Of a DNA stretch of 63,628 nucleotides, positions 3-26,642 are shown piece by piece; within the stretch, counting starts at the first letter, position 1; the number at the start of each line of letters is the position of its first letter. Source of the stretch: Acidipropionibacterium timonense (lineage in GTDB: Bacteria > Actinomycetota > Actinomycetes > Propionibacteriales > Propionibacteriaceae); the NCBI RefSeq assembly GCF_900605005.1, contig NZ_LR027558.1:1592505-1656132 (forward strand), in the 5' to 3' direction. The notes under the pieces are model-generated. The model was given only the letters and a program-made list of their open reading frames with translations. It made no database searches and was not told the origin of the DNA. The position numbers and the translations under genes were made by a program.

Positions 3-1025
3 GAGCCAGGCCCGCCCCCCGCCGGCCGGACCTGTCGGCCGGCTCCCGATCAGCCCCGACACCCCGGCCTGCTCCTCGTCCTGTGGCTCGTCGCGCTGCT
101 CCTGGCCGTCCTCGTCGACGTGCCGGCGCCGACGGTGGCCATGGCCGCCGGACGATCCGACCCACCGGTGCCCGGTCCGGTCGTGCGACCCTTCGACCCA
201 CCCGACAAGCCGTGGTTGCCCGGACATCGGGGGGTCGACATCGCCGCCCCCGTGGGCACCCCCGTGCGCTCTGTGACACCGGGGGTCGTCGTCGTGGCCG
301 GGGTCGTCGTGGACCGGCCGGTCGTCGTCGTCCTCATGGCCGACGGGCGTCGGGTGACCCACCAGCCGGTCGATCCGGCCGTCGAGGTGGGCGACGTCGT
401 CCACCCGGGGCAGGTCCTCGGACACCTGGCAGGCGGGGGCGACTGCGCGACGAGCTGCCTGCACTGGGGCCTCAAGCGCGGCACGACGTACGAGAACCCC
501 TTGTCGCTGTTGGGGTTCGTGCCGGTGCGGTTGCTGCCGGCCGGAAGTCGCCCCGCTCCCCCGCCCGATCCCGGCCCGCAGGAGGTCACCGACCCCCGGG
601 GTCTGCCATCGGCCTCGGGCAGGACGTCGACGATGCTACGGCCGACCTCCGGGCCGGTCTCCTCCCCCTTCGGGATGCGGGTGCACCCGGTGACCGGGGT
701 CCGCAAGCTGCACGACGGCGTCGACCTCGCGTCCCCGTGCGGGACGCCGGTGCGCGCCGGGTACTCGGGGCGCGTCGTGTGGTCGGGCTACAACCGCGCC
801 TGGGGACACCGGGTCGTCGTCGACCATGGACGTGTCGGTGGAGTGCACGTGCGCACCACCTACAACCACCTGGCCTCCTCGGGGCCACCGGTCGGCACGG
901 TGGTCCTGCGTGGCCAGAGCCTGGGTCAGGTGGGGTCGACCGGCTACTCCACCGGGTGTCACCTCCACCTGGGGCTGGAGCGGGACGGGACCCTCATCGA
1001 CCCGGTTCCCTATCTGGGCAGGTGA
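3..1025 (+). CDS. Secreted M23 peptidase with two tandem LytM domains (5' end outside window)
   Basis: The reading frame is open to the left edge, and codons from about position 69 encode a hydrophobic Leu/Val-rich stretch that looks like a signal peptide, so the start lies upstream of the window. Counting from the GTG at 120, a first M23 domain spans about residues 30-130. It has HRGVD (H36, D40) and a CLHWG motif, but Asp stands in front of the first Cys (GDC) where relatives usually have His. A second, complete M23 domain spans about 175-301, with HDGVD (H198) and HLHLGL (H281, H283). Such enzymes cut peptidoglycan cross-bridges or stems. An M23 gene convergent with a xerC-like gene is the common actinobacterial arrangement beside rpsB-tsf. 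Two domains in one chain is less usual. The first may be inactive. Function on peptidoglycan is inferred from the family. Confidence 0.85.
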   Translation, partial: EPGPPPAGRTCRPAPDQPRHPGLLLVLWLVALLLAVLVDVPAPTVAMAAGRSDPPVPGPVVRPFDPPDKPWLPGHRGVDIAAPVGTPVRSVTPGVVVVAGVVVDRPVVVVLMADGRRVTHQPVDPAVEVGDVVHPGQVLGHLAGGGDCATSCLHWGLKRGTTYENPLSLLGFVPVRLLPAGSRPAPPPDPGPQEVTDPRGLPSASGRTSTMLRPTSGPVSSPFGMRVHPVTGVRKLHDGVDLASPCGTPVRAGYSGRVVWSGYNRAWGHRVVVDHGRVGGVHVRTTYNHLASSGPPVGTVVLRGQSLGQVGSTGYSTGCHLHLGLERDGTLIDPVPYLGR

Positions 1026-1043
1026 GGATCTGGGCAGGTGAGG
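1012..1043. repeat. Perfect 16-bp tandem duplication across the M23 stop codon
   Basis: Two exact 16-bp copies lie at 1012-1027 and 1028-1043. The first contains the TGA stop (1023-1025) of the M23 gene and the second repeats that gene tail in the intergenic space. It sits at a convergent junction with the recombinase gene. Confidence 0.9.
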
Positions 1044-1060
1044 GGTCGATGCGCCGGCTG

Positions 1061-1990
1061 TCAGGCCCGGGGGTGCGCGCGCTCGAAGGCGGCACGCAGA
1101 CGTTCGGTCGACACGTGGGTGTAGATCTGCGTCGTAGACAACGACTCGTGCCCGAGCATCTCCTGGACCGATCTGAGGTCTGCCCCGCCCTCGAGCAGGT
1201 GGGTGGCCATGGCGTGTCGCAGCCCGTGGGGGCCGAGGTCGGGTGCGTCGTCGTCGAGACGAAGGTGCTGGTGGACGATCCGCCGGACGACCCGCTGGTC
1301 GATGCGGCCACCCCGGGTTCCAAGGAGGACTGCCCGGCCCGAGGCCGGCGTCACCCATTCCCCGCGCCGGGCCAGCCACCGGTCGAGGGCGGCCCAGGCC
1401 GGGGCACCCAGCGGCACGGTGCGTTCCTTGTCGCCCTTGCCCGTCACGCGGATCGTGTCGCGGTCCCGGTCGAGGTCGTCGAGGTCGAGCCCGCACAGTT
1501 CCGAGACACGCACTCCCCCGGCGTAGAGCACCTCGAGGATGGCGGCGTCGCGGCGACCTCGAGGCGTGGGGTCGTCGCCGGCCCGGGCGACGGCGTCGTC
1601 CATGACCCTGCGGGCCTGGTCGGCGGTGAGCACCTTCGGCAGTCGCCGTGGCACCTTGGCGGCTCTCAGCCCGGCAGCGGGGTCGGTGTCGACGAGGCCC
1701 TCGGCGCGCGCCCAGCGGAAGAAGCTGCGGGCACTGGCCCAGTGCCGCTGCATCGTCGCCGGGGAGGCCCCGCCCTGGCGCGATGCGGCCAGCCAGTCAC
1801 GGAGTTCGGCCAGGTCGACCTCGGCCAGTCTGGTGATGCCGTGCTCGTGAGCATGCACCATGAGCCCCTCGAGGTCGCGCCGGTAGGCACGCACGGTGTT
1901 CGCCGAACGCCGGATCGCCACGAGGTGGTCGCAGAAGTCGTCGATCGGCACGCCGAGGGCAGCAGGAACAGTGGTCGTCATCGGCTCCAC
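1061..1990 (-). CDS. xerC: Tyrosine recombinase XerC-like
   Basis: This 309-residue protein has the two-domain layout of Xer recombinases: an N-terminal SAM-like core-binding domain (about 15-100) and a C-terminal catalytic domain (about 120-300). Visible catalytic motifs are the Arg in GGVRVSEL, the [12 protein letters not shown] block (HxxR), LGHESLSTT, and the Tyr nucleophile in TQIYTH. Length and motifs match XerC/XerD, which resolve chromosome dimers at dif. No phage or integron genes are adjacent, so a housekeeping role is likely. Chromosomal position next to an M23 peptidase supports XerC rather than XerD. The start could be the ATG at 1990 or the one at 1981. Confidence 0.9.
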
Positions 1991-2034
1991 TGTCCCACCC
2001 CGACGTCGACGCGTCGAGGTTCTAGGCTCACCCC

Positions 2035-3072
2035 ATGCAGCGCACCCCCGTCCTCATCTGCGGAACGACGACTCCCCACGGCACCGGCGGCATCTCGACC
2101 TGGCTGGTCTCCTGGCCGGAGCAACCGGACGGCGAGCCCGCGCCCACCGCCGAGCAGACCGGCGCGCTCACCCTCGGTGACGCGAGCTGGGTGACGCCGG
2201 TCGGCGACCGTCTGGCGGTCATCGGCGAACGGGATCATCACCTGTGGCTGGTGCGTCCAGGGGAATGTCCGACGGTCGAGGCAGACCTCGACCTCGTCGG
2301 CGGTGAGCCGTGCCATGCCGCCCTCGACCCCACCGGGCGGATCCTGGCGGTGGCGCACTACGGATCGGGCGAGGTGAGCCTCGTCGACCTCGACTCGTGG
2401 GGCCGTCCACCGCACGTGCTCACCCGGTGCGGATTCGAGGGACACGGACCGGTCGCCGACCGCCAGGCCGGCGCCCACGCCCACCACATCCTCTGGCTCG
2501 ACCGCACCCACCTCGCGCTGTGCGACCTCGGCTCCGACCTCGTGCGCATCCTGCGGCTCTCCGACGCCGGTCTGGAGCAGGTCGGCGAGCTGAGGACGCC
2601 CGCCGGACTGGGACCCCGGCACGCCGTGCTGCGTCGGGACGGCGGCAAACAGGTCCTCACCGTCACCGGTGAGTTGTCAGGCTCGGTGTTCAGCTGGTCG
2701 CGCCCGGCCGGTGAGGACGCCTGGGCGCGGCAGTGGCGTCCGGTCGTGGAGACGCCGACATCCCGGCAGCCGGGAGCAGTCCCCTCGGGGCTGGTCCCGG
2801 GGCCCGACGGGACCCTCCTCGTCGCCAACCGCGGGACCGGCACGCTCGGCGTCCTGCGAGGGAGGTTCGGCCGACTCACCCTGACCGACGAGGTCCCGCT
2901 GTCCGGACGTCACCCCCGCGACCTCACCAGTGATGGCTCCCGCGTGTGGGTGGCAGACCGGGCCGAGGGGACCGTCGAGTGCCTCACCCTCGGTGAGGAC
3001 GGCGCCCGACGCGAGCTGGTGCTGGCGTACCACGGCGCCAGCCGGGTGCTCGTCGGACCCACGCTGGGCTGA
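2035..3072 (+). CDS. Lactonase-family beta-propeller protein (putative 6-phosphogluconolactonase, YbhE type)
   Basis: The 345-residue protein has the repeating blades of the lactonase (PF10282) seven-bladed propeller. Family-like segments include HAHHILW near the middle, [20 protein letters not shown] and [18 protein letters not shown]. In E. coli the YbhE/Pgl type hydrolyses 6-phosphogluconolactone in the pentose phosphate pathway. It carries no signal peptide, consistent with a cytosolic enzyme. A second, unrelated 6-phosphogluconolactonase of the DevB type lies at 38503, so this one may act on another lactone or be redundant. It is followed by the deformylase gene on the same strand. Confidence 0.75.
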
Positions 3073-3172
3073 GGACGGTCCCGACCGGGCCGGCCGGCGT
3101 GCCACAATGAACGGTCGAACAGCCATCACGTCGCCGGTCGGACCGCCCACGGCGACATCGCGAGGAGTAGCC

Positions 3173-3775
3173 ATGCGCAAGCACACCCCCAACGACGACC
3201 CCCGCTGGGAGGACCTCCTCACCGGGGGGACCCTGCGCCGGGTGACCCGGTGGGGTGAGCCCGTGCTCCACGCGAGGACGGCACCGATCACGCAGTTCGA
3301 CGACGACCTGCACACCCTCATCCGCGACATGTTCGCCACCATGGACGCCGCAGACGGGGTCGGCCTGGCAGCCACGCAGGTCGGCGAGAGCCTGGCACTG
3401 TTCGTGTACATCTGCCCCGACGACGACAACGTCGTCCACCACGGCGCCATCTGCAACCCGGTCGTCACCCTGCCGGAGGGCCGCGACCGTCACCTCGTCG
3501 CCCACGACGAGGGATGTCTGTCGTGGCCGGGCGGGTTCCAGCAGTTGGCCCGACCCGACCTGGCGACCTGCGAGGGCCAGGATCCCTGGGGCAACGCCGT
3601 CACCGTCACCGGCACCGGGTTCTTCGCCCGCTGCCTGCAGCACGAGACCGACCACTGCAACGGCATCGTCTTCGGCGATCGACTGTCGAAGCGATCACGG
3701 CGCAAGTTGGACGAGCAGCACGCCGAACTCGACCACCTCTACCCGGCCGACTGGCCGGTCCACCCCAAGGGCTGA
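3173..3775 (+). CDS. def: Peptide deformylase
   Basis: Removes the formyl group from the N-terminal Met of new proteins. All three family motifs are present: GVGLAATQVG, EGCLSWPG with the metal-binding Cys, and QHETDH with the two metal-binding His and catalytic Glu. The ATG at 3173 follows a CGAGGAG ribosome site and gives 200 residues. An upstream in-frame ATG at 3107 lacks a good ribosome site. The Asp/His-rich C-terminus (about 180-200) is an ordinary extension. The gene ends against the convergent rRNA methyltransferase, with a tandem repeat between them. Confidence 0.93.
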   Translation: MRKHTPNDDPRWEDLLTGGTLRRVTRWGEPVLHARTAPITQFDDDLHTLIRDMFATMDAADGVGLAATQVGESLALFVYICPDDDNVVHHGAICNPVVTLPEGRDRHLVAHDEGCLSWPGGFQQLARPDLATCEGQDPWGNAVTVTGTGFFARCLQHETDHCNGIVFGDRLSKRSRRKLDEQHAELDHLYPADWPVHPKG

Positions 3776-3809
3776 GGGCCGTCACCCCGCGCGCTGCGGG
3801 CGTTGCTCG

Positions 3810-3901
3810 CCCAGCGCATGACATGCCCTATTCACCCAGCGCATGACATGCCCTATTCACCCAGCGCATGACATGCCCTATTCACCCAGCGCATGACATG
3901 C
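3810..3901. repeat. 25-bp tandem repeat, 3.7 copies, built from the tail of the adjacent methyltransferase gene
   Basis: Three perfect 25-bp copies lie at 3810-3834, 3835-3859 and 3860-3884, followed by 17 bp of a fourth (3885-3901). The last copies are the 3' end of the minus-strand methyltransferase gene, including its TAG stop (3878-3880). Each unit contains the 11-bp palindrome GCATGACATGC. It lies between convergent genes. Confidence 0.95.
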
Positions 3902-4693
3902 GACGGCCGCAGCGGCGGCGACGTTGAGCGAGTCGACTCCCCGCGCCATGGGAATCCGCACGACGACGTCGGCCTGACCGATCCAGTGCGACGACAGGCC
4001 CGCCCCCTCGGTCCCCATGAGAAGGGCCACCTTGCGCGGCCGCTCCCGCAGCTCGGCGGCGAACTCGTCCAGACCCACCGAATCGTCCGACAACGCCATC
4101 GCCGCCACCGTGAACCCGTGTTCCTTGAGCCGCAACAGCCCCTGCGACCAGTCCTCCAGCCGCGCCCAGGGCAGGGCGAAGACCGTCCCCATCGACGTCT
4201 TGATCGCCCGGCGGTACAACGGGTCGGCTGCTCTCGGGGCCAGCAGGACGCCGTCCCACCCCAGGCCGGCGGCGCACCGGATGATCGCCCCGACATTGGT
4301 GTGGTCGACGATGTCCTCGCAGACGACCAGACGTCGCGCCCCCAGCAGGTCCTCGGCCCTCCATCGGGTCTGCCGCTCCATCGACGCCAGCGCACCACGG
4401 TGCACGTGGAAGCCGGTGACCTGCTCGGCCATCGACTCGGTCAGGACGTACACCGGGGCATCGACGGCGTCGAGCAGATCACGCAGCCCGTCGATCCACC
4501 GCGGCGCCAGGAGGAACGATCGCGGGCGGTACCCGGCTTCGCACGCCCGCCGGATGACTTTGGCCCCCTCGGCGATGAAGAGCCCCTCCGCGGCCTCCAG
4601 GCTGCGCCTCAGACTGACGTCGCGCAGGCTCACGTAGTCCGCGAGCCGCGGGTCGGCCGGGTCGGTGATGTCGATGAATCGGGCCACCGGCAC
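3878..4693 (-). CDS. SpoU/TrmH-family RNA 2'-O-methyltransferase
   Basis: This is a 271-residue SPOUT enzyme that transfers methyl from S-adenosylmethionine to a ribose 2'-OH in rRNA or tRNA. The N-terminal substrate-binding domain (about 20-95) has the typical LFIAEGAKVI segment. The C-terminal SpoU domain shows motif 1 (DHTNVGAIIRCAA), motif 2 (LLMGTEGAGLS) and motif 3 (IPMARGVDSLNVAAAAAV), which form the trefoil-knot SAM site. The exact substrate cannot be told from sequence. It resembles the group often annotated as 23S rRNA methyltransferase. Its last codons have been tandemly duplicated downstream. Confidence 0.88.
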   Translation of the reverse strand: MPVARFIDITDPADPRLADYVSLRDVSLRRSLEAAEGLFIAEGAKVIRRACEAGYRPRSFLLAPRWIDGLRDLLDAVDAPVYVLTESMAEQVTGFHVHRGALASMERQTRWRAEDLLGARRLVVCEDIVDHTNVGAIIRCAAGLGWDGVLLAPRAADPLYRRAIKTSMGTVFALPWARLEDWSQGLLRLKEHGFTVAAMALSDDSVGLDEFAAELRERPRKVALLMGTEGAGLSSHWIGQADVVVRIPMARGVDSLNVAAAAAVACHALGE

Positions 4694-4742
4694 AACCTAC
4701 CGCCGCAGCCGAGGCCGGCCCCGGGGCCCTAGGGTGTCAGCC

Positions 4743-5723
4743 ATGAGTTCGCGCCGGCGTCCGCCCATCGACCGCTTCGTCCTCGCCATCATCATCAGCG
4801 CGATCATCGGTTCCCTGCTGCCGGCCCGCGGACCCATGGTGCCGGTGGTCAGTGACGGCGTCCTCGTCATGGTCTTCCTCCTGTTCTTCCTCTACGGGGC
4901 GCGACTGGAACCGTCCGAGACCCTCGCTGGCCTACGTCACTGGCGACTGCACGGGCTCATCATGGCCTTCACCTTCGTCATGTTCCCGTTGCTCGGCATC
5001 GGCCTGCGCCTCCTCGTGCCCTGGGCCCTGCCGCCGGCGCTCTACGCCGGAGTGATGTGGATCTGTCTGGTGCCCTCCACGGTGCAGTCGTCGATCAACT
5101 TCACCTCGATAGCCCACGGCAACGTCGCCGGGGCGATCGTCGCGGCGACGACGTCGAACCTCATCGGGACCTTCCTCACCCCGGTGCTGGCGATGTTCCT
5201 CATGACGACCAGCGGTGGGCTGCACATCGACGCCAGGTCTTTCCTCGACGTCATCGTCCAGTTGCTTCTGCCGTTCGTCCTCGGCCAGCTGTCACGACGG
5301 TGGACGGCGAGCTTCGTGACGACGCACCGCAAACCCCTCAAGTTCGTCGACCAGGGAGTCATCATCCTCGTCGTCTACTCGGCCTTCTCGGCAGGGATGC
5401 GCGAACACATGTGGTCGCTGGTGAGCCCGACATCCCTGGCCGTCGTCGTCATCGTCTGCCTGGCACTGCTCGCCTTCGCCCTGTGGATCACCTGGGCCAC
5501 CTCGGGCTGGCTCGGGTTCAACCGCGGCGACCGCATCGCCATCCAGTTCTGCGGCACGAAGAAGTCGCTGGCCACCGGGCTCCCCATGGCCACGGTCCTC
5601 TTCGCCGGTCAGCCCGTCGGACTCATCGTCCTGCCGCTCATGATCTTCCACATGACCCAGCTCGTGGCGTGCGGCACCCTGGCCGGACGCTACGCGGAAC
5701 AGGACGCGCAGGTCACGACCTGA
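4743..5723 (+). CDS. Bile acid:sodium symporter (SBF-like) family membrane protein
   Basis: A 326-residue, strongly hydrophobic protein with about nine to ten membrane segments, starting with RFVLAIIISAIIGSLLP. It resembles the PF13593 SBF-like branch (yeast Rch1 and bacterial YfeH types). Conserved-looking elements are FFLYGARLEP near residue 65, STVQSSINFTSIAHGN near 125, and FCGTKKSLATGLPMA near 290, which corresponds to the sodium-site crossover region. The substrate is unknown; the family name should not be read as proof of bile acid transport. The ATG at 4743 follows the minus-strand methyltransferase divergently, with about 50 bp between the starts. Confidence 0.8.
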   Translation: MSSRRRPPIDRFVLAIIISAIIGSLLPARGPMVPVVSDGVLVMVFLLFFLYGARLEPSETLAGLRHWRLHGLIMAFTFVMFPLLGIGLRLLVPWALPPALYAGVMWICLVPSTVQSSINFTSIAHGNVAGAIVAATTSNLIGTFLTPVLAMFLMTTSGGLHIDARSFLDVIVQLLLPFVLGQLSRRWTASFVTTHRKPLKFVDQGVIILVVYSAFSAGMREHMWSLVSPTSLAVVVIVCLALLAFALWITWATSGWLGFNRGDRIAIQFCGTKKSLATGLPMATVLFAGQPVGLIVLPLMIFHMTQLVACGTLAGRYAEQDAQVTT

Positions 5724-5814
5724 GACACGTCGCGCTGGTCGACCCGACGCGCCGCGATGAGCTGCCCCGGCCCGATGAGCCGGGATCGGCGGGGCACGCC
5801 GCCAGCGGCCGGCC

Positions 5815-6999
5815 TCAGCCCTCGTCGGGCTGCGTCGGCCCCCAGTCCTGGACCGTCGCCTCCTCGGAAAACCGCTGGGGAGCCGGCGTCAACTCCTCAG
5901 GGGCCTGCGGGGCGGGCACGGAGTGCTGACGGACGCCGGGATTCTCGAGCTTGGCGGCCTCCTCGATGGCCTGCTGGACGGTGGCGTCGGAGGCCTCCTT
6001 CTCGTCGGCCTTCTGCTGGGCGATCTCGGCGAAGACGTCGACCTTCTCCGGCGCCTTGAAGTGTCCCGGGTCGGCAGCCTCATAGGGCGTCCGGGCGTCG
6101 CCGTCATGGCCGACCATCGATCCCAGCCCCCGCAGGGCGTCATTGAGCTCGGAGGGAATGACCCACACCTTGTTCGCATCGCCACGGGCCAGGGTCGGCA
6201 GCATCTGCATGTACTGGTAGGCCAGCAGACCCTGATCGGGCTGTCCGGCATGGATGGCGCCGAAGACGGTCGTGATGGCCTGGGCCTCGCCCTCGGCACG
6301 CAGCATCTGGGCCTGACGGTCGGCCTGGGCACGCAGCACCGCGGCCTCCCGATCGCCCTGGGCGCGGAGGATCGCCGACTCCCGGTCACCGCCGGCGGCG
6401 AGGATCTGGGACTGACGCTGGCCCTCCGCCAGGAGGATGGCGGCTCGCTTGTCACGCTCGGCTCGGGCGCCCTTCTCCATGGCGTCACGGATCGTCGGCG
6501 GGGGCTCGATGGCGCGCAGCTCGACACGGTTGACCTTGATGCCCCACTTTCCGGTGGCCTCGTCGAGGACCGAACGGAGCTTCTGGTTGATCTCCTCGCG
6601 GCTCGTGAGGGCCGCCTCCATGTCCATTCCACCGATGATGTTGCGCAGGGTCGTCATGGTGAGCTGTTCGATGGCCGTCTTGTACGACTGGGCCTCGTAG
6701 GCCGCACGCTCCGGATCGACGATCTGGAAGTAGATGACCGAGTCGATGTTGACCATGAGGTTGTCCTCGGTGATGACACCCTGCGGCGGGAAGGGGACGA
6801 CCTGCTCGCGCATGTCGAGGTTGTACTGGACGTGGTCGAGGATCGGGATGACCAGATGCGGGCCGGGATTGAGCCGCCGGTGGAACTTGCCGAGCCGCTC
6901 GACGAGACCGATCTTCTGCTGGTGGATGATCTTGACGCTCGAAGCGAGAGCGACGAGGACGACCACCAGGATGATGAGACCGACGATGAGTTCGGGCAT
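5815..6999 (-). CDS. SPFH/stomatin-prohibitin family membrane protein
   Basis: A 394-residue protein with one N-terminal membrane helix (LIVGLIILVVVLVALASSV), a stomatin-like SPFH domain (about 25-185, including QQKIGLVERLGKF and PGPHLVIPILD), an Ala/Arg/Glu-rich coiled coil (about 195-275) and an acidic Pro-rich tail. Such proteins form membrane-bound oligomers in functional microdomains. It sits downstream of an NfeD gene; NfeD-stomatin pairs are a well-known partnership. The ATG at 6999 has a GAGGAG site and precedes the membrane helix directly. Confidence 0.9.
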   Translation of the reverse strand: MPELIVGLIILVVVLVALASSVKIIHQQKIGLVERLGKFHRRLNPGPHLVIPILDHVQYNLDMREQVVPFPPQGVITEDNLMVNIDSVIYFQIVDPERAAYEAQSYKTAIEQLTMTTLRNIIGGMDMEAALTSREEINQKLRSVLDEATGKWGIKVNRVELRAIEPPPTIRDAMEKGARAERDKRAAILLAEGQRQSQILAAGGDRESAILRAQGDREAAVLRAQADRQAQMLRAEGEAQAITTVFGAIHAGQPDQGLLAYQYMQMLPTLARGDANKVWVIPSELNDALRGLGSMVGHDGDARTPYEAADPGHFKAPEKVDVFAEIAQQKADEKEASDATVQQAIEEAAKLENPGVRQHSVPAPQAPEELTPAPQRFSEEATVQDWGPTQPDEG

Positions 7000-7090
7000 G
7001 GGAAGCTCCTCAGCAGGCGACGGGGTCCCGGACCGTTCCGGGATCACCTCAGTCTGCCACCCGGGTAGGTCAGGACGCGACGGAATCCGC

Positions 7091-7182
7091 CGGCCCACTC
7101 ACGCGGACTGACGCGCTCAGTTCACGAGGGCTGACGCGCACAGTTCACGAGGGCTGACGCGCACAAGTCATGAGGGCTGGCG
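7091..7182. repeat. 23-bp tandem repeats derived from the nfeD gene tail
   Basis: Four 23-bp units run 7160-7182, 7137-7159, 7114-7136 and 7091-7113. The first contains the end and TGA stop (7168-7170) of the minus-strand nfeD gene, the next two are close copies that keep the stop region, and the last is diverged. They fill most of the space before the SPFH gene. Confidence 0.85.
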
Positions 7183-7650
7183 CCCGGGCCACCCCAACTC
7201 GGCGTCGGCCGGGTACACCAGCAGGGTCGTCCCCTCGACGCCGTAGACCTCGACCCGCTCCCCGTCCTCGACGACCCGGCCCGGGGTGACCAGACGTGCC
7301 GTCCACGTGTCCCCGTTGACCTTGACCTCACCCCTGCCATCGGTGACCTGCCCGACGGCGACCCCCTCGGCACCGACGAGGCTGTCCAGGGACGAGCGGT
7401 ACCCCGGCGAATTGCGCACCCGGCGCAGCAGGGTCGGGCGCAGCACCGCCAGCAGCAGTACGGCGACGACGACCGCGACGATGACCTGGGCCAGCCACAT
7501 GCCCGGGAGCACGGCTGCCGTCACCGCCCCGGCCAGGGCGCCGGCCGCGATCATGAGCAGTGTGAAGTCGCCGGTGAGCATCTCGAGGCAGGCCAGCACG
7601 GCCGAGGCGACGAGCCAGGCCAACCACAGGTGTCTGCTGAAGTAGTTCAT
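7168..7650 (-). CDS. NfeD family membrane protein
   Basis: A 160-residue protein with a membrane region of about three or four helices (residues 8-75) followed by a soluble OB-fold-like domain (about 95-150) with the typical GEVKVNGDTWTARL segment. This is the short NfeD form lacking the ClpP-like protease domain. NfeD proteins partner with stomatin/SPFH proteins, and the SPFH gene lies directly downstream on the same strand. It starts only 4 bp after the ABC ATPase stop, so the three genes probably form one transcript. Confidence 0.85.
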   Translation of the reverse strand: MNYFSRHLWLAWLVASAVLACLEMLTGDFTLLMIAAGALAGAVTAAVLPGMWLAQVIVAVVVAVLLLAVLRPTLLRRVRNSPGYRSSLDSLVGAEGVAVGQVTDGRGEVKVNGDTWTARLVTPGRVVEDGERVEVYGVEGTTLLVYPADAELGWPGRQPS

Positions 7651-7654
7651 GACC

Positions 7655-8443: not shown

Positions 8444-8493
8444 GGACGTGACGCTACCGCACCCCCACCCCGGGTCGCGCCTATCGTCGAGGG

Positions 8494-9264: not shown

Positions 9265-9307
9265 GACGCGGCGTCCCGGCACCCGGGCACGACCCGGCCA
9301 GGGCCGC

Positions 9308-10081: not shown

Positions 10082-10114
10082 GATCAGGTCCTTTCTGGTG
10101 GGAGGTGTGGCGGA

Positions 10115-10840: not shown

Positions 10841-10919
10841 GTCGAAGAACCTATCGCGAGCCGAGGACAGTTCGCCGGGCCCGACCCGCAGCCGGCCCGA
10901 TCGTCCTAGGGTTGGCCCC

Positions 10920-11399
10920 ATGACCGTCGTGGGAGGCCGAACCCGGGAGGTGGCTCCCGTACGGCGTCGCAGGGCCTCCACGCACGTCATCACCCAGGCC
11001 CGGTTGTCGGCCTCCGAGGACCTCGAACGGCGTCAACGGCGCTACCTGTGGTCGATGGCGATCCGCACCGTGTGCTTCATCCTCCTCATCGTCGTGCCGA
11101 GCCCGTGGCGATGGCTCTTCATTCCCGGGGCGGCCGTGCTGCCCGCCATCGCGGTCGTCCTCGGCAACGCCGCCGACCGACGGAGCACCCGGGCGGTTCC
11201 CGATCCGCCGACCTCCGCCGGGGCGCTCGGCCCGGCCCTCACCGTCCCCGGGGAGGTGCTGACCGCGGAGTCGACGGGCGAGTCGACCCCCGACGGGCAG
11301 GCGCCCGGCACGGAGGCTCCCGACGCACCGTCGCGCGGCGCTGCCGCCGCCGGTGTGGGAGTCGCTGCTCGCCCCGCCGGACCGGCCCCTTCGCGCTGA
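10920..11399 (+). CDS. DUF3099 family membrane protein
   Basis: A 159-residue protein with an Arg-rich cytosolic N-terminus, [23 protein letters not shown], and two close hydrophobic helices (about 46-62 and 64-83), then a long low-complexity Pro/Ala/Gly tail. This pattern matches DUF3099, an actinobacterial family of unknown function commonly found beside fabG-fabI and SURF1. The tail is of low complexity and may vary between strains. It is followed by the SURF1 gene on the same strand after 18 bp. Confidence 0.75.
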
Positions 11400-11417
11400 C
11401 GAGCTAGGCTCACCCGG

Positions 11418-12191: not shown

Positions 12192-13036
12192 GCGTACGCA
12201 CCGACCGTCTGGAGCCGGTCCTCGACTGGCTGGCCTGCCCGGCCTGCCAGCGACGTGGACGCGAGGAGGCACTCTCCCTCGACGGGAGTTCGGTGGTGTG
12301 CCGTCAGGGCCATCGGATCGACGTCGCCCGCGACGGCCACCTCACCCTCATCAGCACCCCGGCCGGGGCCAACGCCGATTCCTCGGCGATGCTCGAGGCC
12401 CGCTCCCGGGTGCTGGCCGCCGGCCTGCTCGACGGCGTCGACGAGGTGCTCACGCGGCGTACCGCCCACGCCACACGGATCCTCGAGGCCGGGGCCGGAA
12501 CCGGCCACCACCTGGCGGCCGTCCTGTCGGCCCACGACGCGGCGTCGCACCCCGCGCACGGCCTGGCCACCGACATCTCCCCGGCGGCGGTGCGCAGGGC
12601 CGCCCGGGCCCATGAGCGGATGGCCGCCGTCGTCGCCGACACATGGCAACGGCTTCCGGTGCGCTCACACAGGGTGGACGCCGTCCTGTGCGTCTTCGCT
12701 CCCCGCAACCGTGACGAATTCGCCCGAGTCCTCGTCGAGGGAGGTCACCTCGTCGTGGCCACCCCGCTGCCCGACCACCTCGTCGAACTGCGTGAGGCCA
12801 CGGGCATGATCGGTATCCAGCCCGACAAGCAGTCGAACCTGTTGGCCTCGATGGTCGGCCCCTTCGAGCCGGTGTCTCGCGACGCCGTGCGGGACCGGGT
12901 CCGCCTCGGCCCGGATCTGGCGGCCGACGTCGTCGCCATGGGACCGAGCGCCCACCATGACACGCGGGTGGCCGACGGTCTGGAGGTCACCGTGGCCGTC
13001 GAGGTGACGACCTTCACCCGACGCCCGTCCGCCTGA
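12188..13036 (+). CDS. rlmA: RlmA-type 23S rRNA guanine-N1 methyltransferase
   Basis: The 282-residue protein begins with a zinc-binding domain (CPAC at 17-20, then C..GH around 38-42) and continues with a Rossmann SAM-dependent methyltransferase whose motif I is ILEAGAGTGHHL. This domain order is typical of RlmA(I)/RlmA(II), which methylate G745 or G748 of 23S rRNA; the latter type gives tylosin resistance in producers. The exact position cannot be told. The ATG overlaps the SURF1 stop (ATGA), implying translational coupling. Confidence 0.82.
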   Translation: MSVRTDRLEPVLDWLACPACQRRGREEALSLDGSSVVCRQGHRIDVARDGHLTLISTPAGANADSSAMLEARSRVLAAGLLDGVDEVLTRRTAHATRILEAGAGTGHHLAAVLSAHDAASHPAHGLATDISPAAVRRAARAHERMAAVVADTWQRLPVRSHRVDAVLCVFAPRNRDEFARVLVEGGHLVVATPLPDHLVELREATGMIGIQPDKQSNLLASMVGPFEPVSRDAVRDRVRLGPDLAADVVAMGPSAHHDTRVADGLEVTVAVEVTTFTRRPSA

Positions 13037-13040
13037 GCCG

Positions 13041-13121
13041 ACCTGCCGGGGGCGCTCAGCCGCGCGGAACCTGCCGGGGGCGCTCAGCCGCGCGGAACCT
13101 GCCGGGGGCGCTCAGCCGCGC
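13041..13121. repeat. 28-bp tandem repeats derived from the tail of the HTH protein gene
   Basis: Perfect 28-bp copies lie at 13041-13068 and 13069-13096, with 25 bp of a third at 13097-13121. The third includes the minus-strand stop codon (13112-13114) of the adjacent gene. Each unit keeps the stop codon context. The repeats fill a convergent junction. Confidence 0.92.
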
Positions 13122-13645
13122 CGGGCCTCCTCGAGTGCCGCCTGGGCCTGCTCGAGCATCCGCTGGGCAGCAACAGCCTTGTCGGCACGCTTGTCCGCCT
13201 TGCGACGGGCCGCCTTGCGCTTGGCCTTGGATGCGCCCTGGTCACGGAGCTTGCGCACCTTGCGCTTGGCCTTCGTGGCCTTGCGCGTCGACCTGGCCGC
13301 CTCCTGCCGGGCCACCTCGACGGCCTCCTGGAGGCTGCTCATCGCCGCCGGATCCGACGCCGCGAGCGCTCGGCGCTCCCGGGACTCGGCCTCGTCGGCA
13401 GCTCGGACCGCCGCCTCCGCGACCTCCTCGCGCAGCGCCCTGGTGCGCGGGGACGCCGGATCGGCCCCGCCTCGCGACCGGAATTCGACGCCGGCCTCCC
13501 GCAACAGCTTCTGGACCAGCCCGTAGGACCGGCCGGTCTCCTGGGCCAGGGACCTGATCGACGCCCCGTCCTGGTACCGGACGGCGAGGTCGTCGGCGAC
13601 GTCACGGCGCTCCTGGCCGACGAGTCGGGGTGCGCGAGCGGCCAT
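13112..13645 (-). CDS. Helix-turn-helix protein with Lys/Arg-rich coiled-coil tail
   Basis: A 177-residue protein. Residues about 10-60 form an HTH of the actinobacterial type with VRYQDGASIRSLAQETGRSYGLVQKLLREAGV, followed by an FRSRGG motif. The rest (about 75-177) is Ala/Glu/Arg then Lys/Arg-rich helix, probably coiled coil, which may bind nucleic acid. The ATG at 13645 has an AGGAGG site 7 nt upstream, so the ATG at 13675 is rejected. Function is unknown; a DNA-binding role is inferred from the HTH. Confidence 0.7.
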   Translation of the reverse strand: MAARAPRLVGQERRDVADDLAVRYQDGASIRSLAQETGRSYGLVQKLLREAGVEFRSRGGADPASPRTRALREEVAEAAVRAADEAESRERRALAASDPAAMSSLQEAVEVARQEAARSTRKATKAKRKVRKLRDQGASKAKRKAARRKADKRADKAVAAQRMLEQAQAALEEARRG

Positions 13646-13735
13646 GGAACCTCCTGGGATGCGGGTGGGCCTCATCGTACGGCACGGGCAGCCGTGACGC
13701 GGGCCCAGCGGGGACCGTCGTCCCCGGCCGACGGG

Positions 13736-15334
13736 TCAGGCCAGGGAGATGAGCTCGGCGTAGTCGGGACTCCACAGGTCCTCGGTGCCGTCGGGCAGCA
13801 ACAGCACCCGATCAGGCTCCAGGGCGTGGACGGCACCCTCGTCGTGGGTCACCAGGACGATCGCCCCACCGAAGTTCGAGATGGCCCGGAGCACCTGCTC
13901 CCGGCTGGCCGGGTCGAGGTTGTTCGTCGGCTCGTCAAGGAGCAGGACGTTCGCCGAGGAGACGACGAGGGTCGCCAGGGCCACCCGGGTCTTCTCACCA
14001 CCCGAGAGCACCCGGACCGGCTTGTCGACGTCGTCCCTGGTGAAGAGGAAGGAGCCGAGGATCTTGCGCATCTGGGTCTCGTTGAGGTCCTGGGCGGCAC
14101 TCGCCATGTTCTCGAGAATGGTGCGGTCCATGTCGAGCATGTCGTGCTCCTGGGCGAAGTAGCCGATCCGCAGCCCGTGACCGGCGACGACCTCGCCGGT
14201 GTCCGGTTGCTCGACCCCGGCCAGGATGCGCAGGAGGGTCGTCTTGCCGGCGCCGTTGAGCCCCAGGACGACGACCTGGGATCCACGGTCGATGGCCAGG
14301 TCGACCCCGGTGAAGACCTCGAGGGAGCCATAGGTCTTGGTGAGGTTGCGCGCCATGAGCGGGGTCCGACCGCACGGAGCGGGGTCGGGGAAACGGATCG
14401 CGGCGACCTTGTCGGCGGCCCGCTCCCCCTCCACCGAGGCCAGCAGCCGTTCGGCCCGCCGGGCCATGTTCTGGGCGGCGACGGCCTTGGTCGCCTTGGC
14501 GTGGAGCTTGTCGGCCTGGGCCTGGAGAGCTGCGGCCTTGCGCTCGGCGTTGATCCGCTCCTTGTGCCGACGCTTCTCGTCGGCGGCCCGCTGCTCGAGA
14601 TAGAGCTTCCAGCCCATCGAGTAGATGTCGAGAGTGGCGCGGTTGGCGTCGAGATGGAAGACCTTGTTGACGGTGGCCTCGACGAGTTCGGTGTTGTGGC
14701 TGATCATGAGGACGCCGCCCGAGTACGACTGGAGGAAGTTCCGCAGCCACACGATGGAGTCGGCGTCGAGATGGTTGGTCGGCTCGTCGAGGAGCAGCGT
14801 GTCGGCTCCGGAGAAGAGGATGCGCGCCAACTCGACCCGTCGGCGCTGCCCACCCGAGAGGTTCTTGAGCGGCTGTCCGAGCACCCGGTCGGGCAGGGCC
14901 AGGTTGGACGCGATCCGGGCGGCCTCGGCCTCGGCGCCGTATCCCCCGGCGGCGACGAGCCGGTCCTCGGCCCGGGCGTACTTGGCCATCGCCTGCTCAC
15001 GCTCGGCGTCGGTGCCGTGGGCCATGGCGTGCTCGAGGGAGCGCATCTTCTCGAGCATGTGGTCCAGCCCCCGCGCCGAGAGGATCCGGTCGCGCGAGAT
15101 CGTCTCCATGTCGGGATCACGAGGGTCCTGGGGCAGGTAGCCCAGGGTCCCGGTGCGTCGGACGCTGCCGGCGGCGGGCAACCCCTCACCGGCCAGGATG
15201 CGGGTGAGGGTCGTCTTGCCGGCGCCGTTGCGGCCGACCAGGCCGATCTTGTCCCCCGCCGTCACCTGGAAACTCACCGGGTTGAGCAGGAGCCTGGCCC
15301 CGACCCTGACCTCCACATCCTTGACCTGCAGCAC
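13736..15334 (-). CDS. ABC-F family ATPase
   Basis: A 532-residue protein with two ABC cassettes and no membrane segments. Cassette 1 has GRNGAGKT and LSGGQRRRVELAR, and cassette 2 has GLNGAGKT and LSGGEKTRVALA, with LLLDEPTNHLD and LLLDEPTNNLD Walker B motifs. Between them is a charged linker rich in Lys/Ala (about 235-310), the part of ABC-F proteins that reaches into the ribosome. Such proteins act in translation or in antibiotic target protection. The subtype is not clear. The GTG at 15334 opens with LQVKDVEV. A longer in-frame extension upstream reads as out-of-frame GC-rich noise. Confidence 0.88.
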   Translation of the reverse strand: MLQVKDVEVRVGARLLLNPVSFQVTAGDKIGLVGRNGAGKTTLTRILAGEGLPAAGSVRRTGTLGYLPQDPRDPDMETISRDRILSARGLDHMLEKMRSLEHAMAHGTDAEREQAMAKYARAEDRLVAAGGYGAEAEAARIASNLALPDRVLGQPLKNLSGGQRRRVELARILFSGADTLLLDEPTNHLDADSIVWLRNFLQSYSGGVLMISHNTELVEATVNKVFHLDANRATLDIYSMGWKLYLEQRAADEKRRHKERINAERKAAALQAQADKLHAKATKAVAAQNMARRAERLLASVEGERAADKVAAIRFPDPAPCGRTPLMARNLTKTYGSLEVFTGVDLAIDRGSQVVVLGLNGAGKTTLLRILAGVEQPDTGEVVAGHGLRIGYFAQEHDMLDMDRTILENMASAAQDLNETQMRKILGSFLFTRDDVDKPVRVLSGGEKTRVALATLVVSSANVLLLDEPTNNLDPASREQVLRAISNFGGAIVLVTHDEGAVHALEPDRVLLLPDGTEDLWSPDYAELISLA

Positions 15335-15497
15335 CGGACAATCCTGCCCCGCGTCGGTGCCGGTCCCCAAACCGCGCGTCCCCACGGCCACCATGGACGA
15401 CGTCGTACCGCTGTCGACGAACAGCCGGCACGAGCTGCCCCGGGCCTCTACCATGGGTCCGCACGGCCCGTGAGGGGCCCGACGGGGAGCCGCCACC

Positions 15498-16382
15498 ATG
15501 GACTTCAAGGACGACGCGCAGATCGACCAGGACGCCATCGATTCGAGTGCCTCCAGAGGCGGAGGAGGAGGCGGGCGGATCGCCATCGGCGGTGGCGCCG
15601 GCGTCATCGTCCTCATCATCGCCCTGTTCCTGGGCATCGACCCGGCGAACATCCTCGGTTCGGACACCGGTGAGACGGGGACGGGCACCTCGTCCGTCGC
15701 GTCGACGACCTCGTGCCGGACCGGGGCCGACGTCAGGAAGGACCCGAACTGTCGGTGGGCGGCGTACGCGACGAGCATCAACCAGTACTGGGCCACCCAG
15801 ATCGACGGCTACACCAAGGCCCGCGTCAAGCCCTTCACCAACGCCGTCGACACCGGCTGCGGCCATGCCAGCGCCCAGATGGGCCCCTTCTACTGCTCGG
15901 CCGACAAGCTCGTCTACCTCGACACGAACTTCCTCGGCGAACTGCTGCAGCAACTCGGTACCCAGACGAGCACCGCGGCCGAGGCCTATGTCATCGCCCA
16001 CGAGTACGGACACCATGCCCAGGACCTCATCGGGACCCTGTCGAAGGCGCACTCCTCCGGCAGCCAGACCGGCGCTCACTCGGCCTCGGTGCGCCTGGAG
16101 CTCCAGGCCGACTGCTACGCCGGGGCGTACCTCAAGTGGGCCGCCGACAACCCGGACGACCTCATCGAGAACGTCACCTCCTCCGACATCGAGAAGATCG
16201 TCGCCGCCGCCAAGTCGGTCGGTGACGACCACATCCAGGAACAGCAGCAGGGGCAGGTCGACCAGGACGCCTGGACCCACGGCTCGTCCGCCATGCGGAT
16301 CTACTGGACCAAGCGCGGGTTCGCCAGCGGATCACCGAAGCAGTGCGACACCTTCTCGACGAACAACCTCGAGGGTCGCTGA
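15498..16382 (+). CDS. YpfJ-type neutral zinc metallopeptidase, membrane-anchored
   Basis: A 294-residue protein with a Gly-rich N-terminus, one membrane helix (about 30-50) and an outside zinc peptidase domain. The zinc site HEYGHH is at residues 168-173, followed by QDLIG, and ELQADCYAG downstream supplies the third ligand Glu. These features and the length match PF04228. Two Cys pairs (CRTGADVRKDPNC and CGHASAQMGPFYC) suggest disulfides. The role of the family is unknown. It stands alone, with the ABC-F gene divergent upstream. Confidence 0.85.
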   Translation: MDFKDDAQIDQDAIDSSASRGGGGGGRIAIGGGAGVIVLIIALFLGIDPANILGSDTGETGTGTSSVASTTSCRTGADVRKDPNCRWAAYATSINQYWATQIDGYTKARVKPFTNAVDTGCGHASAQMGPFYCSADKLVYLDTNFLGELLQQLGTQTSTAAEAYVIAHEYGHHAQDLIGTLSKAHSSGSQTGAHSASVRLELQADCYAGAYLKWAADNPDDLIENVTSSDIEKIVAAAKSVGDDHIQEQQQGQVDQDAWTHGSSAMRIYWTKRGFASGSPKQCDTFSTNNLEGR

Positions 16383-16394
16383 GGTCTGCGGGGG

Positions 16395-16901
16395 TCAGGG
16401 CCTGGGCGTCGGCGTGTCTGCACCCGATGCCTCCCGCACCATGGGGACGTGGTCGATCCCGGCCTCCTCGAAGTGCTGTCCGCAGGTGACGAACCCGAAC
16501 CGTCCGTACCACCGCTCGAGGTACGACTGGGCGTGGATGAGAACGGTCTTGCCCCTGCACAGGTCGAGGGCGTGCTCGACGAGGAGCGCCCCCACCCCGC
16601 GCTGACGCCAGGCCGGATCCGTGACGACGCGGCCCAGGGCGACGGTGTCGCCGTCGTCGAGGATGCGCAGGTGCCCAACGACGTCGTCTCCGCTGGCCGC
16701 CCACACCAGGACGGTCGACGGCTCGAGCTCGCGACCGTCGAGATCCTCCTCGGTGACGCCCTGCTCACCGAAGAACACCCGGCTGCGCAACCAGAGGATC
16801 CGGTACAGGGTCGTCGGGTCCATGGCACCCAGGGGCCGGCTCCGCACGACGACGGGACGCGAATCCCCCGTGGTGGGCGTGAGGGCGAAGTCTGAGGTCA
16901 T
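16395..16901 (-). CDS. GNAT acetyltransferase, ElaA-like
   Basis: The 168-residue protein has the ElaA-type N-terminus (TLYRILWLRSRVFFGEQ) and the acetyl-CoA binding segment RGVGALLVEHAL, then HAQSYLERWYGRFGFV, typical of the fold's last strands. The acceptor substrate is unknown. The ATG at 16901 is chosen because upstream codons look noncoding. It is convergent with the zinc peptidase gene, 12 bp away. Confidence 0.82.
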   Translation of the reverse strand: MTSDFALTPTTGDSRPVVVRSRPLGAMDPTTLYRILWLRSRVFFGEQGVTEEDLDGRELEPSTVLVWAASGDDVVGHLRILDDGDTVALGRVVTDPAWRQRGVGALLVEHALDLCRGKTVLIHAQSYLERWYGRFGFVTCGQHFEEAGIDHVPMVREASGADTPTPRP

Positions 16902-16985
16902 GGCGACATTGTCGCCGTCCCGAGGCGGGTGGCGGTAAGCGTCTCGCCGTGGCCGGGTGGGCACCTGGCTCCGGGAGTTGACACA

Positions 16986-17345
16986 ATGGGACCCATGGCA
17001 GCACCCCGTCACGCGGCACCGGAAGAGGACCTTGAACTCCAGGCGGTCACCCGGGCGTGGCGTCGTTACATGGCCTGGGTCATCGTCGGCCTGGCCGTCG
17101 CCGTCGTCGGGCTCATGCTCTTCGGGTATCTGTCATGGTGGAGCCTGTGCCGTCAGGTCATCGGTGTGTGCAAGCGTGGGGAACCGGGCATCTTCTGGGG
17201 AGCGACCGCCTCGGCCGCCATCCTCGGCGCCATCATCGGAATCCTCTGCCAGGTGTGGGTCGAACGCCGGACGAGCGCGATCATCGCCGCCGGCGCCGCC
17301 GGGGTCATCCTCGCGGCCGGGGTGATCTTCTGGTTCGTCGTGTGA
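16986..17345 (+). CDS. Small three-helix membrane protein of unknown function
   Basis: A 119-residue protein with helices at about 30-50, 70-92 and 96-118 by hydrophobicity. The segment between helices 1 and 2 holds a Cys pair (SLCRQVIGVCKRG). The start may be the ATG at 16986 or 16995, three codons apart. No family is recognised. The ordinary codon bias, hydrophobic pattern and position at the end of the core block support coding. Confidence 0.6.
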   Translation: MGPMAAPRHAAPEEDLELQAVTRAWRRYMAWVIVGLAVAVVGLMLFGYLSWWSLCRQVIGVCKRGEPGIFWGATASAAILGAIIGILCQVWVERRTSAIIAAGAAGVILAAGVIFWFVV

Positions 17346-18270
17346 GGACGCTCCCCGTCACGTCGTCCCCACGATGACCGCCGAGGCCCGCTGACCGCAA
17401 CGCGCGCTGGCCGCCGATGCCGCCCTGCCCCCCGACGGCACTCTGCTCCAGAAGCTGCGCCCTGCTCCGGAACCTGAATCCTGCTCGGGAACCTGAATCG
17501 GCACCGCGACGCCACTCCACCCCGTGAACCACCGAGCCCACCGGTCAGGGTCGCCACGTGGCGCCAGATACTGCACCCTGCTCCACAATCCGCCAGCCGC
17601 TCACCCCCGACGCCCACCCAGCGCCAGAACCTGCACCCTGCTCCCGGTATTCCCGGAGCAACGTCAATGCTCTGGAGCAACGTCGCGTCAGGGCCGGGAA
17701 CGGTGGTGGTTTCCGGAGCAGAGTCCCTGTCGGCCGCGCCACCATCACCCGGTCGGCCAGACAACCGTGCTAGGCGGGCTGACCCGCGCCAGCGTCTCCA
17801 CCGACGACGGCGTCATCATCCTCTGCCCCATGACCCGCACCCCACACTCGAGACATCTCGGATGGCGCCACCCCTCGCGAATCCTCGAGGTGAATCGCAT
17901 AGATGCCATGCCCGTCTCGCACGTCAATCTGGCCCCGGACGACCATCGATGGCTCAGGTCATGAGGAGACTCCACACCACTCACGTGGCCGGAGTCATGA
18001 GGATGGGCTCAACCTCGGATGGCTGACCATGCCGCGGCCCGGCACCTGCAATCGCAAAACAGCCGGGCGACACCATCCGAGGCGACCGACACTGTCAACC
18101 TCCCCCGCCGCACTCACACGGAAGAGCTAGACTTTCAACAACGTATTCACAGCATGGCGGCGACGGTTCACGTCATCAACACGCCGCCCCCGGACAGGGT
18201 CAGAGTCGACCCCGTCAACGACGAATGACAGGTTCAGACGGAGCCACCCCCCACGACGAAGGAACACCCG
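17346..18270. other. Long gene-poor stretch with degraded repeats
   Basis: About 925 bp in which I see no credible gene. Several open frames of 65-200 codons exist, but they show no domain, poor ribosome sites and Arg/Ser/Pro noise typical of shadow frames in GC-rich DNA. Between 17440 and 17720 are repeated short motifs built around CTGCTCC and GGAACCTG. From 18090 to 18270 the sequence becomes clearly more AT-rich and leads into the protease gene, so the promoter of that gene probably lies there. Confidence 0.6.
17440..17720. repeat. Degenerate short repeats in intergenic DNA
   Basis: Units of about 20 bp with the theme CCTGCTCCGGAACCTGAATC recur three times between 17440 and 17498. A 24-bp unit starting GCGCCAGA and ending CCCTGCTCC occurs at 17561-17584 and 17621-17644 with two differences. 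The motif GGAGCAACGTC occurs twice at 17655-17684. They look like a decayed repeat cluster or remnant of a mobile element. Confidence 0.55.
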
Positions 18271-18888
18271 ATGAAGGACATCCTCGCACGAACCAGCCTT
18301 TTCCAGACAGCACTGTCGCGAGTCACGCGCATCGTGCCCGCATTGCTGATCATCATGTGCATGGCCATGGCGTCGATCTTGCTTTCCAGCCCGGGCACAG
18401 CCCATGCGTATGCGCTGACGGGCTGCAAGTCCACGAACCTGAGCCGCAAGCTTCCCGACTACTACGCGACAGGGATCGGAATGACGGTGTGGTATAGCGA
18501 CGTTCTCGATCAATCGACTATACATTGGTGGCGAAATGGCGTCAGCGGCGGATTCAAGCGATCTGCGAACTACGACATTCTCGTCAAACGGGAACCAGTT
18601 GGGGGCGCCGGCTACTGGATGATGTCATACTGGTCGTGCGATATCTTCGGCCACATGCACGCCCGATCCATCACTGTCAACTCGAAGACCACCGATGGCC
18701 TCGAAGCCTGGAAGATCAAGTACATATTCATTCATGAATTCGGGCACCAACTCGGCTTGGCACACACCGACTACGGATGCGGTGTTTCCATCATGCGCGG
18801 CAACTCCAATGCCGAGGGCGCCCAGTGCCCAGGGTCGTTCCCACCATGGTCTGACGACCTCAAGGGCTACCACCACATCTACGGCTGA
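18271..18888 (+). CDS. Secreted matrixin-like zinc metalloprotease
   Basis: A 205-residue protein with a signal peptide (hydrophobic core about 20-45, ending AHAYA) and the metzincin zinc site HEFGHQLGLAH (H155, E156, H159, H165). A later SIMRG contains the Met expected for the metzincin Met-turn. The mature part has five or six Cys, suggesting disulfides. Base composition is visibly lower in GC than neighbours, and codons such as AAA, TAT, ATA and TTG are frequent, which suggests transfer. It has a GAAGGA ribosome site. The next gene, for a lipoprotein, begins 24 bp later, so the two are probably one operon. Target is unknown. Confidence 0.8.
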   Translation: MKDILARTSLFQTALSRVTRIVPALLIIMCMAMASILLSSPGTAHAYALTGCKSTNLSRKLPDYYATGIGMTVWYSDVLDQSTIHWWRNGVSGGFKRSANYDILVKREPVGGAGYWMMSYWSCDIFGHMHARSITVNSKTTDGLEAWKIKYIFIHEFGHQLGLAHTDYGCGVSIMRGNSNAEGAQCPGSFPPWSDDLKGYHHIYG

Positions 18889-18912
18889 CACAGCGAACGA
18901 AAGGACTCCACC

Positions 18913-19593
18913 ATGACCCGGCACACCTACACCCGCAGACACGCACTCTTCCTGGGCGCAGGTTCGGTAGCGCTCCTCACCCTCACCAACTGTTCATCCT
19001 CCCAGGGCTCGGGCGGCGGTCAAGCAGCCCACGTCCACTTGGCGAGCCCGGCCTGGGACTCCATCGAAGCCATCGCGAAGTACTCCAGCACGGTCGTCAT
19101 GGGAACCTTCGCCTCCTTCTCCGAGGGCCAGACCAACGTCGGACCGGACGAGACACCGGTCATGGCGAACCTCCGAGTCGGAAAGCTCACGGTGACCCAG
19201 GGAGACCTCGCCGGGGAATCACCCCTGACCGTGATGTTCCCCTATCCCATCGAGTCCACACCGGGCGGCATCCAAGTGGAACAGGACGTCGAACAGCCAG
19301 CGGCCGTGAAGAAGCAGATCGACGATCTCCAGACGGACGGAACCACCTATCTCATCTTCACGTACAGAACCAAGAAGGAAGACATCCAAGACGCAGAACT
19401 CAAGAAACTCAATTCCGACACATATCTGGAAATGGGCGACATGCGGGGAACCTTCGTCGTCAAGGGCGACCGGGCCTATCCGGTCGGGAAACCCGTGCCG
19501 TGGGACTCCGCCACCGCGTCGACGACCGCACCACCGGAGAGCTGGCCGGTCGACGACCTCCTCAAGGTGAAACTCGGGAGAGCCTCGTCCTGA
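18913..19593 (+). CDS. Tat-type lipoprotein of unknown function, paired with the metalloprotease
   Basis: A 226-residue protein. The N-terminus has a twin Arg (TRRHALFLGAG) and a lipobox-like LTNC with Cys27, so a Tat-exported lipoprotein is likely. The mature domain (about 40-190) is a beta-rich-looking unit with VVMGTFASFSEGQ, LRVGKLTVTQGDL and YLIFTYRT, which I do not recognise. It follows the secreted protease by 24 bp with an AAAGGA ribosome site. A role as partner, inhibitor or surface receptor of the protease is only inferred from the pairing. Confidence 0.72.
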   Translation: MTRHTYTRRHALFLGAGSVALLTLTNCSSSQGSGGGQAAHVHLASPAWDSIEAIAKYSSTVVMGTFASFSEGQTNVGPDETPVMANLRVGKLTVTQGDLAGESPLTVMFPYPIESTPGGIQVEQDVEQPAAVKKQIDDLQTDGTTYLIFTYRTKKEDIQDAELKKLNSDTYLEMGDMRGTFVVKGDRAYPVGKPVPWDSATASTTAPPESWPVDDLLKVKLGRASS

Positions 19594-19667
19594 GTGGATC
19601 CTCTGACACAGCACCTCACCCGGGACGACGACGTGGGGGGTCGGGCGACCACGCCACCCGACCCCCC

Positions 19668-19703
19668 ACGATCCCACGACCTCAGACGATCCCACGTCCT
19701 CAG
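19668..19703. repeat. 18-bp tandem duplication at the sufT gene tail
   Basis: Two 18-bp units with one difference, at 19668-19685 and 19686-19703. The second contains the TGA stop (19700-19702, minus strand) of sufT. The junction is convergent with the lipoprotein gene. Confidence 0.85.
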
Positions 19704-26547: not shown

Positions 26548-26642
26548 CCAAATGGGACGCAGATGCAAGTCCTCCCTCGCACGTCCGGGTCGAGAGCCGA
26601 CCCACGCGCAAGAGCCCGGCAGACACCCAGAGCCAGATGAAA

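Follow-up and report, generated by a model that had tools for sequence, protein, structure and literature searches.

Why should several genes of one bacterial genome end in tandem copies of the sequence around their own stop codons? The question arises from a 63,628-bp stretch (the window, meaning the whole stretch analysed) of the 2.82-Mb genome of Acidipropionibacterium timonense, in which a reading made from the sequence alone had noticed five tandem arrays that each cross a gene's stop codon. Tandem Repeats Finder (TRF) recovered all five arrays at, or a few bases off, the positions first given, two of them with shifted bounds (7091-7182 became 7099-7183, and 19668-19703 became 19668-19706). 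The most fitting reading of them is as ordinary minisatellites of bacteria (variable number tandem repeat, VNTR-type, loci) lying across stop codons, and we consider it probable that they are young and species-specific, the outcome of replication slippage filtered by selection. The five arrays (periods, copies and matches from TRF, gene products mostly from Pfam, gap types from gene calls) are as follows.

1012-1043, plus strand: 2.0 copies of a 16-bp period, 100% matches, at the stop of an M23 peptidase gene (PF01551); gap convergent with a tyrosine recombinase gene (PF00589).
3810-3901, minus strand: 3.7 copies of a 25-bp period, 100% matches, at the stop (TAG) of a SpoU/TrmH-type methyltransferase gene; gap convergent with peptide deformylase.
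7099-7183, minus strand: 3.7 imperfect copies of a 23-bp period, 88% matches, at the nfeD stop; gap co-directional with an SPFH/Band 7 gene.
13041-13121, minus strand: 2.9 copies of a 28-bp period, 100% matches, at the stop of an HTH_58 gene; gap convergent with an rlmA-like methyltransferase gene.
19668-19706, minus strand: 2.2 copies of an 18-bp period, 95% matches, at the stop of sufT (SufT-like, FeS_assembly_P); gap convergent with a gene at 18913-19593 that has no Pfam match.

The units lie head to tail, measure 16-28 bp and occur in 2.0-3.7 copies, within the unit range of roughly 10-100 bp that characterizes minisatellites. The repeated unit had been described as the last 16-28 bases of the gene, and this needs correcting: the coding part of a unit, in which the stop is counted, is 7-24 bases long (M23 14/16, methyltransferase 24/25, nfeD 16/23, HTH_58 10/28, sufT 7/18), and the rest lies 3' of the stop in the gap. 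The sufT unit (18 bp) alone among the five has a length that is a multiple of three. With a score of at least 60 and a period of at least 12, TRF reported 13 arrays in the window, intragenic ones counted, versus a mean of 0.1 in 30 surrogate windows from a first-order Markov model (top score 62). Thus, the arrays are not chance products. Their five consensus units are all different, and a 110-bp query across the array at 3810 found no second copy in the genome (next-best match 20 bp, E = 0.04), this search having been made with that array alone; the units of the 23 stop-spanning arrays from the genome sample described below were compared with each other by eye alone. A dispersed element family of the mycobacterial interspersed repetitive unit (MIRU) or repetitive extragenic palindromic (REP) kind would place a common sequence at several loci, and was rejected given five different consensus units and the search with the one array at 3810.

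We then asked where such arrays lie across the genome. The own-genome sample, a partial one, consisted of the window and 60 stretches of 20 kb (1,263,628 bp), and the relatives' sample of 400 kb from each of four genomes (G002, G003, G005 and G011), with one genome of the host species in the comparison. From other Actinobacteria we used 79 of 80 loci (L020 was left out), and L087-L116 and L001-L006 were left out of the analysis. Counts from these loci are not independent, since the loci are in part syntenic and related and certain Brevibacterium arrays recur as one array across several genomes. Genes were called with a purpose-written codon-usage model, a home-made caller that limits these counts. 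The TRF census took periods of 12-100 bp; longer periods (rows of 137/138 and 168 bp) were dropped, and arrays across both a stop and a start (classes “both” and “straddle35”) were tallied separately.

In the own-genome sample, window included, 23 arrays spanned only a stop and 2 only a start. The remainder comprised 1 array across both kinds of site, 54 wholly intergenic, 2 at a gene edge and 138 intragenic. Stop-only arrays numbered 3, 0, 7 and 3 per 400 kb in G002, G003, G005 and G011, respectively (13 in the census, 12 in the unit list, which requires a gap above zero), and start-only arrays 0 throughout. The Brevibacterium loci (156 kb) held 7 stop-only and 2 mixed arrays, in part one array in several genomes, and four other actinobacterial groups held 7, 0, 0 and 2 stop-only versus 1, 0, 1 and 1 start-only arrays. 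These counts support the proposal of a single type of event whose units vary from site to site; it recurs genome-wide, with starts avoided.

To put stops and starts on a common scale we counted, for each array footprint, the real-gap placements that lie across a stop, across a start or wholly in the gap interior, with inserted copies removed (periods up to 60 bp, ancestral gaps up to 300 bp). Since the window had been picked for its arrays, the key tests of placement and of convergence leave it out; it is included in the count of 23 versus 2 and in the list of stop-array units. The edge rule of the placement count is slightly looser, giving 24 own-genome stop arrays versus 23 in the census, window included. 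Outside the window, arrays in the own genome occupied 19 of 16,693 stop placements and 2 of 16,512 start placements (P = 2e-4); among those with at least 90% matches, 11 were at stops, 1 at a start and 9 in interiors. Over all genomes, again outside the window, 45 arrays spanned stops and 4 spanned starts. This asymmetry between starts and stops is firm. It had been stated beforehand that arrays equally frequent at start codons or at random positions between genes would speak against the pattern; stops proved about ten times richer in arrays than starts and, with weak significance, about twice as rich as gap interiors.

The explanation that we favor combines slippage with tolerance. A replicating polymerase would slip back between short direct repeats and recopy the stretch, yielding units such as the 13-56 bp ones of the arrays seen, and with two copies in place further slippage would gain or lose whole units. 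Polymerase slippage would thus be the enzyme-level step. Duplications probably arise everywhere, and selection would purge most of them, namely those that shift the frame inside genes and those that disturb initiation at gene starts. A stop-spanning duplication would leave protein and stop codon unaltered, its spare copies falling in the 3' untranslated stretch; doing the gene little harm, it would survive, and the resulting array would be neutral.

The filter is visible in unit length. Intragenic arrays have units divisible by three in 124 of 138 cases in the own genome and in 177 of 187 in the other genomes. Among stop arrays the same holds for 9 of 23 in the own genome and 2 of 12 in the relatives (11/35), which is the chance level. 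Units that keep the frame inside genes and not outside them (124/138 versus 9/23) are what neutral slippage at minisatellites would be expected to give.

Comparison with relatives shows the arrays to be absent from the junctions examined there. At 29 corresponding junctions in 7 related loci (Cutibacterium and Acidipropionibacterium) no TRF array scored 50 or more, the SufT match in L008 being doubtful as an ortholog; two weak rows of 11-12 bp scored 35 and 38. The methyltransferase junction has gaps of -43 to +46 bp in 6 related loci and the HTH_58 junction gaps of 22-106 bp in 6 related loci, all lacking an array. The SufT ending (...FNV-stop) is conserved in 5 related loci that have no array and is contained in the sufT unit, which indicates that the end of sufT itself was the source of its array.

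A single step of such a process appears to be caught in Brevibacterium, where four genomes (L044, L045, L047 and L048) are longer than two others (L046 and L049) by exactly 17 bp, one stop-spanning unit. The shorter form already has CTGTGAA direct repeats, and from these sequences we read the difference as a probable gain rather than a loss. In these genomes (L044-L049, at ~14475 in L044 coordinates) the gene stop and the apparent GTG start of the next gene seem to fall in copies of one and the same CTGTGAA-bearing unit, so that the repeat would join both ends of the junction. Terminal partial copies of at least 6 bp were found in 10 of 15 stop-spanning arrays (at least 95% matches) and in 8 of 14 interior arrays; their presence at both kinds of site is as expected of slippage on pre-existing direct repeats.

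Two other origins were rejected. Non-homologous end joining was set aside since a search of 9 same-genus genomes turned up no Ku. Loss of NucS was set aside since all 20 genomes searched have NucS, which thus does not account for why species differ.

Several observations weigh against slippage and tolerance as the whole explanation. Tolerance alone predicts equal densities at stops and in gap interiors, yet stops are about twice as rich per placement. Earlier placement nulls ignored partial copies and put the stop excess at up to about seven-fold in convergent gaps; counting on ancestral footprints lowered the pooled excess to about two-fold, the sole figure used here. Divergent-gap interiors (7 arrays in the own genome, 12 in all genomes) stand outside this pooled ratio. 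Without the window, own-genome interiors in convergent and co-directional gaps carried arrays at 21 of 37,343 placements, a stop/interior ratio of 2.02 (P = 0.027), or 2.49 (P = 0.054) for arrays with at least 90% matches; convergent gaps by themselves gave 10 stop versus 5 interior arrays (P = 0.12). All genomes together, partly non-independent and likewise without the window, gave 45 versus 56 (ratio 2.04, P = 5e-4), and the other genomes minus Brevibacterium a ratio of 1.67 (P = 0.08). Across gap types the own genome showed a nearly flat interior density (6.2, 5.5 and 5.9 arrays per 10,000 placements in convergent, co-directional and divergent gaps), thus promoters do not obviously lower it. 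Short 8-mer direct repeats were no denser at stops than in interiors, and seed density therefore does not account for the two-fold excess. In addition, the one-unit difference comes from another genus, with a gain as its probable direction, and the partial copies could also stem from erosion. The excess of stops over interiors is modest, and tolerance leaves it unexplained.

This excess is what sustains the best of the alternatives, namely that tandem duplication has a true mutational hot spot at gene 3' ends, as could happen if RNA polymerase pausing or R-loops at the points of translation stop and transcript termination stalled the replication fork. Besides the two-fold excess that survives footprint correction, the flat own-genome interior density and the lack of a seed excess, array edges in the other genomes point in its direction: the 20-bp bins flanking stops held 28 and 22 edges (2193 ends), those flanking starts 4 and 5 (2383 ends). 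However, the excess is small, comes in part from non-independent genomes and weakens once Brevibacterium is removed, and there are lineages with no stop array at all (G003, 0 in 400 kb). With the window excluded, own-genome edges numbered 9 at stops and 11 at starts in the outer 20-bp bin, and 14 versus 1 in the inner bin, a difference for which tolerance accounts. As the inner bin differs and the outer does not, tolerance fits the own genome taken alone, and the hot-spot explanation draws on the pooled excess. We regard it as unlikely. Were it true, high-GC Actinobacteria would have a hot spot for short tandem duplication at gene ends that depends on where translation or transcription ends, not on convergence, and their 3' untranslated regions would grow as gene ends are copied again and again, a picture to which we give a small chance. 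If the two-fold excess is mutational, this link between gene-end biology and duplication could be tested in mutation-accumulation data.

Selection for additional stop codons, which the sequence-only reading had offered as a cause, or for transcription terminators arranged in tandem at gene ends, is a very improbable explanation. The copies do carry the stop triplet, and some units form clear hairpins (e.g., in L132 and L144). Nonetheless, unit lengths divisible by three are no more frequent than chance (11/35), by which we reject in-frame back-up stops, and the 35 units fold no better than array-free gene ends (folding energy, Kolmogorov-Smirnov P = 0.32 for one unit and 0.11 for two copies), by which we reject tandem or hairpin terminators. 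The junctions examined in related species also do without arrays.

Slippage or repair at sites where transcription from convergent genes collides had likewise been suggested; the slippage fits, the collision does not. Our gene calls bear out that four of the five window arrays lie in convergent gaps, the nfeD/SPFH gap being co-directional, and 14 of the 23 own-genome stop arrays do so as well. With the window included and gaps unmatched, 14 of 342 convergent versus 9 of 570 co-directional gene ends carried an array (P = 0.027). Without the window the figures became 10/316 versus 8/544 (P = 0.14), and at matched ancestral gaps of 60-300 bp, again without the window, 3/158 convergent versus 8/265 co-directional gene 3' ends (Fisher P = 0.55); gap-matched counts in the other genomes were 5/376 versus 9/595 (P = 1). 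The preference is gone once gap length is matched, and we reject convergent collision as highly improbable. GC skew across the sampled stretches was too weak for locating the origin and terminus.

An assembly artefact can hardly be the cause of the five arrays and was rejected: the assembly does seem to contain artefacts (13 two-copy duplications of 137/138 bp, 12 of them in multi-copy DNA), but the five arrays have five different periods, 2-3.7 copies and lengths of no more than 92 bp, and comparable arrays occur in G002, G005 and G011, each a single contig.

The 137/138-bp tandem duplications form a group of their own. In 12 of the 13 the unit has more than two matches in the sample, and they look like unmerged contig-join overlaps at multi-copy DNA. 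Their positions within the sampled loci are:

L123: 3950-4222 and 4450-4726
L127: 10216-10488
L128: 3001-3278
L132: 4829-5099
L147: 11866-12141
L151: 8734-9010 and 14121-14399
L154: 12635-12910
L167: 12088-12364
L168: 16504-16778
L172: 2352-2627
L176: 5417-5692

Three further repeats in the window lie apart from the stop codon arrays. The intergenic stretch at 17346-17769 contains copies of CTGCACCCTGCTCC. In the 1.26-Mb sample there are 8 occurrences of its 12-base core GGAGCAGGGTGC, where 0.65 would be expected, and by our gene calls each of the 8 is intergenic; the four 400-kb relatives have 0 occurrences and the other loci 6. Genome-wide, a 14-mer of the repeat gave 25 matches with at most one mismatch versus 14 for a reversed control, several of them forming pairs with a spacing of 60 bp or inverted pairs with a spacing of 24 bp; this is possibly a small dispersed family. 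At 59176-59299 TRF reported 4.6 copies of a 27-bp unit with 98% matches; the unit length is divisible by three and the list of intergenic arrays does not include it, so that it presumably encodes a 9-residue protein repeat. At 26639-26673 a divergent gap holds 2.2 copies of a 16-bp unit that is AT-rich for the host genome.

Our findings provide a measured rule for a compact genome, in which short tandem duplications persist at stops about ten times more often than at starts. They also suggest candidate typing loci for the host species. By title or the start of the abstract we found no report of array enrichment at stop codons, subscription journals being mostly outside the scope of that search, and we do not claim that the pattern is unpublished.

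How do these arrays compare with known systems? The MIRU of mycobacteria are actinobacterial tandem repeats at gene junctions with variable copy number; they form a single family of longer units, unlike the arrays here. The sequence-only reading knew of no named element that behaves in this way, yet the arrays are of the minisatellite or VNTR type, and excerpts from published reports describe several relatives of the pattern. In M. tuberculosis, repeat copy number is reported to be phase-variable in promoters (PMC12817950), and in a comparison of E. coli genomes the small segments that vary include minisatellites that are not palindromic units (PMC2884548). The GGGAATC heptamer repeats of Xanthomonas are tandem, lie mostly within 50 bp of stops and on the coding strand, and are one family with a fixed G-quadruplex motif (PMC4692102), whereas the units here vary by site. 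A like anatomy is found in the tandem repeats of archaeal Borgs, where arrays that start inside the end of an open reading frame (ORF) have been described (PMC9879509). As excerpted, these are recent and independent, have units divisible by three in ORFs and mostly not between them, and carry flanking partial repeats, as here; they differ in being A-rich, perfect and located on archaeal extrachromosomal elements, and the excerpts give no tally for stop codons (PMC9879509). For Propionibacterium (Cutibacterium) acnes, a 13-locus multiple-locus VNTR analysis (MLVA) scheme includes large VNTRs with 14-31 bp units (PMC5874615). The arrays here share this range of unit sizes, and the acnes loci are ascribed to slipped-strand mispairing (PMC5874615). 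The acnes loci are described as being in several genes and one intergenic region (PMC5874615), whereas many of the arrays described here span stop codons.

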